Below, piece after piece: positions 10,946-12,773 of a stretch of 34,100 bases of DNA. Source of the DNA: a virus; the IMG/VR virus record IMGVR_UViG_3300032316_001572, positions 1 through 34,100 of that record. One strand, 5' to 3'. Positions within the stretch are counted from its first letter, which is position 1. The number at the start of each line of letters is the position of its first letter. The notes beneath the pieces are model-generated. The model was not told the DNA's origin. It saw nothing but the letters and a program-made list of their open reading frames with translations, and made no database searches. The position numbers and the translations under genes are program-made.

Positions 10946-11470
10946 ATGCCCGTCCCGACAGTAATAACCGATTTGTCCACAACTGCCGCGTCCAACTCCC
11001 CTGCTGGCAGCGAGTCTGCGCGGGGCACGGTGGACGACTACCTGCGGGCACATGCCGCATTCATCGCGCAGACGCGGGCCGGCGCACCGCAACTGGACGG
11101 TAGCGGCAACTTGCTGGTCGGCGCGTCTACCGATGCCGGCTTGGTGAGCAACCTTAAGAAAATGGTCAGCGGCATTTTCTCGACAGTCAACGGCTCGGTG
11201 TCGGCGACTAACGCGAACGGAACCGCGCTATTCACCATCCCCGACGTTAACAGCTCGACGTGGCTGGTGTCGGCGCAATTGCAATCTGGCAACACCGCGA
11301 GCTATGCAGCGTTTGCCATTATCTGCACGCAAAACGGCTCGTTTCGGATCATGTCAAACATCGCGGGCACATTGCTGACGATCAGCCAAGGAAGCGGGCT
11401 GATTGTGCAGGCAACGCAGAGCAGCGGGGCCACGGCAACCATCCACTACTCGGCCATCAGGGTGATGTGA
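10946..11470 (+). CDS. Short tail fibre-like or appendage protein
   Basis: The 174-residue protein opens with VPTVITDLSTTAASNSPAGS, then GTVDDYLRAHAAFIAQ. This N-terminal module is shared by many phage tail fibre proteins and probably fastens them to the virion. The rest is beta-rich and ends in a compact domain (SGATATIHYSAIRVM). Most homologous fibres are longer, so this may be a short fibre or a stub adaptor. It has its own ribosome binding site (AAGGGAG, 9 bases before ATG) after an 83-base gap, so it opens a new unit. Its stop overlaps the next gene as TGATG, tying it to the lysis genes. Confidence 0.7.
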   Translation: MPVPTVITDLSTTAASNSPAGSESARGTVDDYLRAHAAFIAQTRAGAPQLDGSGNLLVGASTDAGLVSNLKKMVSGIFSTVNGSVSATNANGTALFTIPDVNSSTWLVSAQLQSGNTASYAAFAIICTQNGSFRIMSNIAGTLLTISQGSGLIVQATQSSGATATIHYSAIRVM

Positions 11471-11736
11471 TGACAACCGATCCCGGCTTTCTGCGCCTGG
11501 AAGCGAAAGTAGACAAGCTCACCGATGCGGTCATGCGCCTAGTTGTGATCGAGGAGCGCCAGACCGCACAGGCCGAGCGTATCGGCGCGGTCGAAACCAA
11601 GGTCACCGCCAACGAGGTCGCCATCGTCACGGTAGACCGGCGCGTTGACCAGTGGGTGAATCGTGGCATCGGCGTGTGGCTCGCTGCGGTCGCCGTGCTG
11701 GGCCTGTTTAAGCTCGCCGCTCAGTTTTTCAAATGA
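11470..11736 (+). CDS. Small coiled-coil membrane protein, probable lysis factor
   Basis: The 88-residue protein has an N-terminal coiled coil (residues about 8-60, heptad pattern in LRLEAKVDKLTDAVMRLVVI and RIGAVETKVTANEV). One C-terminal membrane segment follows (GIGVWLAAVAVLGLFKLAAQ) with a Lys near the end. This layout is like XhlA-type proteins found with phage holins. It begins in the previous stop and overlaps the endolysin gene by ATGA, so it is made with the lysis genes. It might be a holin, an antiholin or an accessory. A longer frame from 11260 shadows the fibre gene and is rejected as the start. Confidence 0.6.
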   Translation: MTTDPGFLRLEAKVDKLTDAVMRLVVIEERQTAQAERIGAVETKVTANEVAIVTVDRRVDQWVNRGIGVWLAAVAVLGLFKLAAQFFK

Positions 11737-12773
11737 TCACCAACGCTGCCGGCCTGTCGCTGATCCGGCAGGCCGAGGGCTTGCGCCTGCGTGCGTATCT
11801 TTGTCCGGCAGGCGTTTGGACAATCGGCATCGGCACCACCGTCTACCCCGACGGGCGCAAGGTGCAACGCGGTGACAAATGCACAGAACAACAGGCCACC
11901 GACTACTTAGCCAACGACTTGCAAGGATTCGAGCGTGCCGTTGCCGCGATGGTGACGGTGCCGTTGACTGAAAACCAGCTCAGCGCACTTGTGAGCTTTG
12001 CCTACAACGTGGGCGGCGGCGCTTTAAGCAAGTCCACTCTCTTGCGCCTTCTGAATGCTGGCGACTATGCCAGTGCCGCCAACCAGTTTCAACGGTGGAA
12101 CCTAGCCGCCGGTAAGGAACTTCCGGGCTTGGTAAAGCGCCGAGCTGCCGAGCGTGCCCTATTTCTAACCCCCGATTCTGCGCCCCTACAAGCCGTCGGA
12201 CTGATGGCGGCTACCGACATACCAACCAAGGAGTCCACGCCCGTGCTGCCCGTTCTTGCCGCCCTGCTGCCCACGATTGTGGGAATGATCCCGCAGTTGT
12301 CCAAAGTCTTCACCGACGGCACATCCGTCACCGACCGCAACATCGTCGTTGCGCAAAAAGTCGGCGAGCTAATTGTCGACGCCACGCAAGCCACCAACCT
12401 GCAAGATGCCGTCGAAACCATGCAGCGCGACCCGGATGCGTTGCAAGCCGCGACCGCTGCCGTCCAGTCGCAGATGTACGAACTGACCGAAGCAGGCGGC
12501 GGTGGCATTGCGGGCGCTCGAGCATTTGCTGCCAGCGCGGACGGCAAGTTTTTCTACAGCCCCGCCTTCTGGGTGACCGTGCTGCTGATGCCGCTTTTGT
12601 ACGGCACGGTGTGGATCGCACTCACAAGCGAAAGCGGATTCAGCAACGAGGTGCGTGCGGCGATTGCCAGCGCGGTGGTCACCGGCATTCTCGGCGCGGT
12701 GGTGGGCTTTTGGCTCGGATCGTCGTTTACAACGAGCAAGTCTCGAGGACTCGGAGCCGAGGCGAGCAGATGA
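11733..12773 (+). CDS. Endolysin (GH24 lysozyme) fused to a holin-like membrane domain
   Basis: The 346-residue protein has two parts. Residues 1-145 are a phage lysozyme (GH24) that cuts the glycan chain of peptidoglycan: the triad is E15, eight residues, C24, five residues, T30, the known E-(8)-D/C-(5)-T variant, followed by GIGTT, then LSALVSFAYNVGGGAL and a WNLAAGKELPGLVKRR end. No signal peptide or signal-anchor is seen. Residues 171-346 look like a separate phage holin-type protein: PVLPVLAALLPTIVGMIPQL, a helical acidic middle, EAGGGGIAGAR, then two membrane segments (about 277-298 and 309-332) and a basic tail. The halves are usually separate genes. An internal ribosome binding site sits exactly at the junction. 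It is ATGA-coupled on both sides. Confidence 0.88.
   Translation: MITNAAGLSLIRQAEGLRLRAYLCPAGVWTIGIGTTVYPDGRKVQRGDKCTEQQATDYLANDLQGFERAVAAMVTVPLTENQLSALVSFAYNVGGGALSKSTLLRLLNAGDYASAANQFQRWNLAAGKELPGLVKRRAAERALFLTPDSAPLQAVGLMAATDIPTKESTPVLPVLAALLPTIVGMIPQLSKVFTDGTSVTDRNIVVAQKVGELIVDATQATNLQDAVETMQRDPDALQAATAAVQSQMYELTEAGGGGIAGARAFAASADGKFFYSPAFWVTVLLMPLLYGTVWIALTSESGFSNEVRAAIASAVVTGILGAVVGFWLGSSFTTSKSRGLGAEASR
12228..12245 (+). promoter_or_regulatory. Internal ribosome binding site and GTG start for a free holin-like protein
   Basis: A perfect AAGGAG (12228-12233) is followed, nine bases on, by an in-frame GTG (12243-12245), codon 171 of the fusion. Translation from here would give a 176-residue protein beginning MLPVLAALLPTIVGM, exactly where stand-alone homologues of this holin-like family would be expected to begin. 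The gene could thus make both a long fused endolysin and a short membrane protein. An in-frame ATG 39 bases upstream of this GTG has no comparable site. Confidence 0.6.

Follow-up and report, generated by a model that had tools for sequence, protein, structure and literature searches.

In the genome of a temperate phage, we found a gene in which a GH24 phage lysozyme and a whole TeaA-type holin are joined in one uninterrupted reading frame. This fusion is a real, maintained gene, because its junction is open in independent contigs and purifying selection acts on both of its halves. In addition, we think it somewhat probable that this single lysis gene gives rise to two products, namely the lysozyme-holin fusion, which would serve as endolysin and brake and deliver its enzyme in tethered form, and a free holin. 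The window, that is the whole stretch of 34,100 nucleotides that was analysed, also carries integrase, repressor, portal and large terminase genes. The features of the lysis region are the following:

11470..11736, plus strand: upstream 88-aa protein with one C-terminal membrane segment and no family match
11733..12773, plus strand: gene of the lysozyme-holin fusion (346 aa), uninterrupted from its ATG to its TGA
11733..12167, plus strand: GH24 phage lysozyme domain, residues 1-145 (PF00959, phrog_7, solved lysozymes, E15-C24-T30)
12168..12242, plus strand: 25-codon linker with low synonymous divergence between relatives
12191..12212, plus strand: possible RNA hairpin AGCCGTCG-GACTGA-TGGCGGCT, 15 nt upstream of the internal Shine-Dalgarno (SD) sequence
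12228..12233, plus strand: internal Shine-Dalgarno-like AAGGAG, preceding GTG 12243
12243..12773, plus strand: predicted TeaA-type holin domain, 176 aa, from the GTG at codon 171 to the stop (hhalign to the TeaA/VHML-ORF20 family)
12243..12299, plus strand: hydrophobic segment 1, residues 171-189, proline-containing (from hydrophobicity)
12567..12623, plus strand: predicted membrane segment 2, residues 279-297 (strong hydrophobic stretch)
12660..12716, plus strand: predicted membrane segment 3, residues 310-328 (strong hydrophobic stretch)

The sequence-only reading from which this work started had described a single frame running from a lysozyme into a holin-type domain, and had named a missed frameshift at the junction as the error to be excluded. 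The ORF at 11733-12773 is indeed intact, and its 346 aa are laid out as lysozyme (residues 1-145), 25-aa linker and 176-aa membrane domain. The complete fusion is also present in the IMG/VR contigs L001 (87% identity) and L002 (91% identity), while in L004 and L006 the junction is present and open and the gene is cut by the contig end. No stop or frameshift was found in any of these four independent contigs, and the linker has a constant length of 25 codons. A sequencing error or a missed frameshift is ruled out by these open junctions. Specifically, in the comparison of the window with L001 and L002 (dS about 0.5-0.9), the lysozyme part has a dN/dS of 0.17-0.20 and the holin part one of 0.10-0.12, indicating purifying selection on both; this selection, together with the homology of the C-terminal part, also rules out a chance extension of the frame.

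The N-terminal half is a GH24 phage lysozyme, with predicted muramidase activity. PF00959 (Phage_lysozyme) matches residues 13-140 with E=8.5e-49 and 165.5 bits, compared to a gathering score of 22.3, the PHROG match of this part is phrog_7 (endolysin, 5.9e-66), and solved phage lysozymes match it with E values down to 1e-48. The E-C-T triad that had been read at residues 15, 24 and 30 was confirmed, E15, C24 and T30 following the catalytic pattern E-x8-(D/C)-x5-T; in the GH24 catalytic triad, C is able to stand for D. The fusion had also been taken to be made without a signal sequence, in agreement with which neither an N-terminal signal nor a SAR segment was seen. Two other identities were considered and rejected: a SAR endolysin, as no weakly hydrophobic signal-arrest-release segment lies ahead of the catalytic E15, and SpmX, whose model NF051871 matches the lysozyme part only, with 80.6 bits against a cut-off of 700. 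Among other viral contigs, L031 (2462-3253) shows another layout of a membrane-tied endolysin, in which a long linker connects a GH24 lysozyme to a single membrane segment at the C-terminus, and dozens of contigs (L038-L100) encode a GH24 lysozyme with a second domain resembling, by eye, an M15-type peptidase.

A different, unrelated endolysin is fused to the same TeaA-type holin in L003 (2434-3513). The N-terminal enzyme of this second fusion matches phrog_873 (E=8.6e-49) and the PDB entry 7q47 (E=4e-19), its linker to the holin is proline/alanine-rich, and a possible internal ATG start lies at codon 178, the start of the holin. The L003 and window pair would have originated either by an enzyme swap within an existing fusion or by two fusion events. 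The stop of the upstream ORF overlaps the fusion start as ATGA in the window and likewise in L003, where a counterpart of the 88-aa protein stands in the same place and has one C-terminal membrane segment. The N-terminal part of the window's 88-aa protein appears heptad-like by eye, and this protein is possibly a lysis accessory protein. The same order of small protein and lysis gene is found in L102 (1895-2911), where a small protein that has a C-terminal membrane segment comes ahead of a TeaA-like holin.

The GTG at 12243 is codon 171, exactly the first codon of the holin domain, and shows the strongest SD pairing among the 29 in-frame ATG, GTG and TTG codons of the window. At the holin start, the SD outranks that of every other in-frame start in the window (-8.0 kcal/mol), L001 (-9.5), L002 (-8.6) and L004 (-9.5), and in L003 an ATG stands there that shares the top rank. 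In L001, L004 and L006 a different sequence, GGAGGA, occupies the position of the window's AAGGAG. The fusion gene's own start has no SD (+0.9 kcal/mol in the window). When synonymous codons were resampled for the peptides before codon 171 (containing KES, EEK or EDK), an equally strong SD arose in 22-39% of draws for the close group, so that the SD does not exceed what codon choice would give and its strength alone is weak evidence; for L003, an equally strong SD arose in 5% of draws. Therefore, the argument is that the best site coincides with the domain boundary and is retained through sequence change. We propose that a free holin would be translated from GTG 12243 in addition to the fusion. 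The earlier analysis had set the fusion and separate proteins against each other as exclusive outcomes, an opposition that is probably false, as GTG 12243 with its AAGGAG predicts a free holin too.

The linker that holds this site shows a dS of 0.13-0.16, compared to 0.5-0.9 in the lysozyme part (Fisher p about 0.0015 for L001 and 0.045 for L002). The hairpin sequence is nearly invariant in five loci and therefore has no covariation support; the linker DNA with the hairpin may be a cis-acting element.

These observations bear on the hypothesis of an obligate single chain, according to which the 346-aa protein is the sole product, forms oligomers through its holin domain and takes the attached lysozyme to the other side of the membrane. 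This is the self-delivery that the sequence-only reading had suggested. The frame is open in all relatives, the L003 linker is like those of real multidomain proteins, and a cargo-flipping model has been published for a TpeE-endolysin fusion (PMC9527704). However, in the window, three close loci and L003 the domain boundary coincides exactly with a candidate internal start that has a ribosome-binding-like site, and the main start is devoid of an SD; we consider an obligate single chain rather unlikely.

The holin-type reading of the C-terminal domain is sustained by profile homology. In the hhalign comparison of the fused holin domain with the TeaA/VHML-ORF20 family, a probability of 98.1%, an E value of 9.4e-14 and a score of 86.6 over 158 columns were obtained, compared to scores of at most 30.1 in 200 column-shuffled profiles and 18.0 for the reversed profile. 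The alignment begins at residue 1 of both the fused domain and the family, and it extends over the whole length, indicating that a complete holin is attached and not a fragment. By homology the C-terminal half is thus a whole TeaA-type holin, which would be expected to form pores. The two membrane segments previously proposed correspond to strong hydrophobic stretches at residues 279-297 and 310-328, but a third candidate at residues 171-189 raises their number to three; AlphaFold models, of low confidence (pLDDT about 40), were uninformative on topology.

The link to TeaA is based on profiles and not on a direct sequence match. A Pfam search of residues 171-346 returned no match to a holin or any other family, with PF11351 absent even at E up to 10, tblastn of the window holin domain against phage records gave no match even at E=10, and scans of cellular genome contigs found no relatives of the domain. 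The link to TeaA was provided by the more distant contig L003, whose holin domain, 55% identical to the window's, weakly matched Halomonas phage phiHAP-1 and Vibrio phage MAR; the MAR protein is 41% identical to TeaA of Vibrio phage ICP1, and both are in the VHML ORF20 family. TeaA has been experimentally shown to be a holin that collapses the proton motive force and is triggered by DNP, and it was assigned to GTA_holin_3TM, PF11351 (PMC7182436). We did not file the fused domain under PF11351, because it has no direct match to this family, which matches only one of eight TeaA-family relatives.

A separate TeaA-family gene stands directly behind the endolysin in VHML-like phages, in MAR, in phiHAP-1 and in VP882, and in Vibrio phage 1.033.O the enzyme directly ahead of it is of the DD-peptidase type. 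Adjacency to the endolysin was seen in L007, L008, L011 and L013, and the spacing in separate-gene relatives is 2-15 bp. The annotated VHML ORF20 (L016, 2501-3043) is shorter than its homology region, which holds an in-frame stop codon, and its relatives in MAR and VP58.5 are intact. Like this family, to which it is homologous along the full length of the holin, the fused domain has a hydrophobic N-terminus and two membrane segments in its C-terminal part. The family holin is encoded by a separate gene, whereas that of the window is fused behind a GH24 lysozyme, without a direct Pfam match.

The homology of the whole domain to a family in which holin function has been shown by experiment, and the position of TeaA-family genes directly behind endolysins elsewhere, also argue against the hypothesis that the C-terminal domain is a mere anchor or localiser, comparable to SpmX, with the 11470-11736 protein or another gene providing the true holin. 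This is unlikely in our view, although the NCBIfam SpmX model does match the lysozyme part, far below its cut-off, one membrane segment is present in the 88-aa protein upstream, and the L031 lysozyme carries a single C-terminal one. SpmX-type proteins (NF051871) share with the window gene a GH24 domain followed by membrane segments, but SpmX is a cellular localisation factor at the cell pole, and its model covers only the window's lysozyme. The lysozyme domain structure 6h9d is presumably that of SpmX. Least probable of all is an incidental loss of the endolysin stop, with separate activities sufficing, the holin made from its old start and the fused product without a special role: the retained holin start and SD and the 2-15 bp spacing of separate-gene relatives would agree with it, but the junction has remained open and its length fixed at 25 codons throughout the divergence of the domains on either side (dS 0.5-0.9), and a second fusion exists with another enzyme.

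We return to the production of both a fusion and a free holin, a model in which internal translation, pore formation, mixing, the brake role and delivery are the parts that we infer. The full-length lysozyme-holin would be translated from 11733 through coupling to the upstream ORF, whereas translation of the free holin would begin at the internal GTG 12243, which has a Shine-Dalgarno sequence of its own. Fused and free subunits would then mix in the inner membrane, and the folded N-terminal lysozyme would prevent its own holin subunit from taking on the active topology, which would make the fusion endolysin and antiholin-like brake at once. Upon triggering of the free holin, the membrane would open and the tethered lysozyme would reach the wall at the lesion. 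The brake role is suggested by likeness to lambda S105/S107; in S107, an N-terminal positive charge holds the inactive topology. Only tentatively do we extend the model to a full assignment of roles, with the fusion as endolysin and antiholin and the internal-start holin as effector; the ratio of the two starts would then set the lysis clock, and the enzyme would be delivered in tethered form at the rim of the lesion.

A TpeE-family holin-endolysin fusion has been reported in Clostridium sporogenes (PMC9527704). Holin and endolysin are joined there in one polypeptide, as in the window, but the holin comes first and the endolysin second, the holin has one membrane helix and the host is clostridial; the passages considered describe no internal start, whereas the window has a candidate one. 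The claim of a potentially new lysis design is therefore to be narrowed: the lysozyme-holin fusion is real, but a fusion of opposite order had already been reported, and what differs in the window is the arrangement. Endolysins produced as two polypeptides through an in-frame internal start are known in phages of Gram-positive bacteria and in mycobacteriophages (PMC9430671; CTP1L, PMC4777826). As proposed for the window gene, one gene yields a full-length enzyme and a C-terminal product, which carries a cell-wall-binding domain in those endolysins and would be a membrane/holin domain in the window. Gram-negative phages were excluded from the survey of two-polypeptide endolysins because their endolysins are mostly single-domain (PMC9430671). 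The combination of a lysozyme-holin fusion with an internal-start holin product was not found in the literature searched (open-licence papers).

In the textbook view, endolysin and holin are encoded by separate genes, and this separation allows timing. The rare fusion layout is shared by related phages and also occurs, with a different enzyme, in one other phage. Endolysin surveys have discarded proteins with membrane segments (PMC12596118), and fusions of this kind would therefore be missed. In conclusion, a conserved fusion with two unrelated enzymes raises the question of how a pore-tied enzyme is silenced until lysis and how it is released. The two halves of the lysis system may be both tethered and separately made, and the internal start allows the question of silencing and release to be tested with single mutations that are synonymous or introduce a stop.
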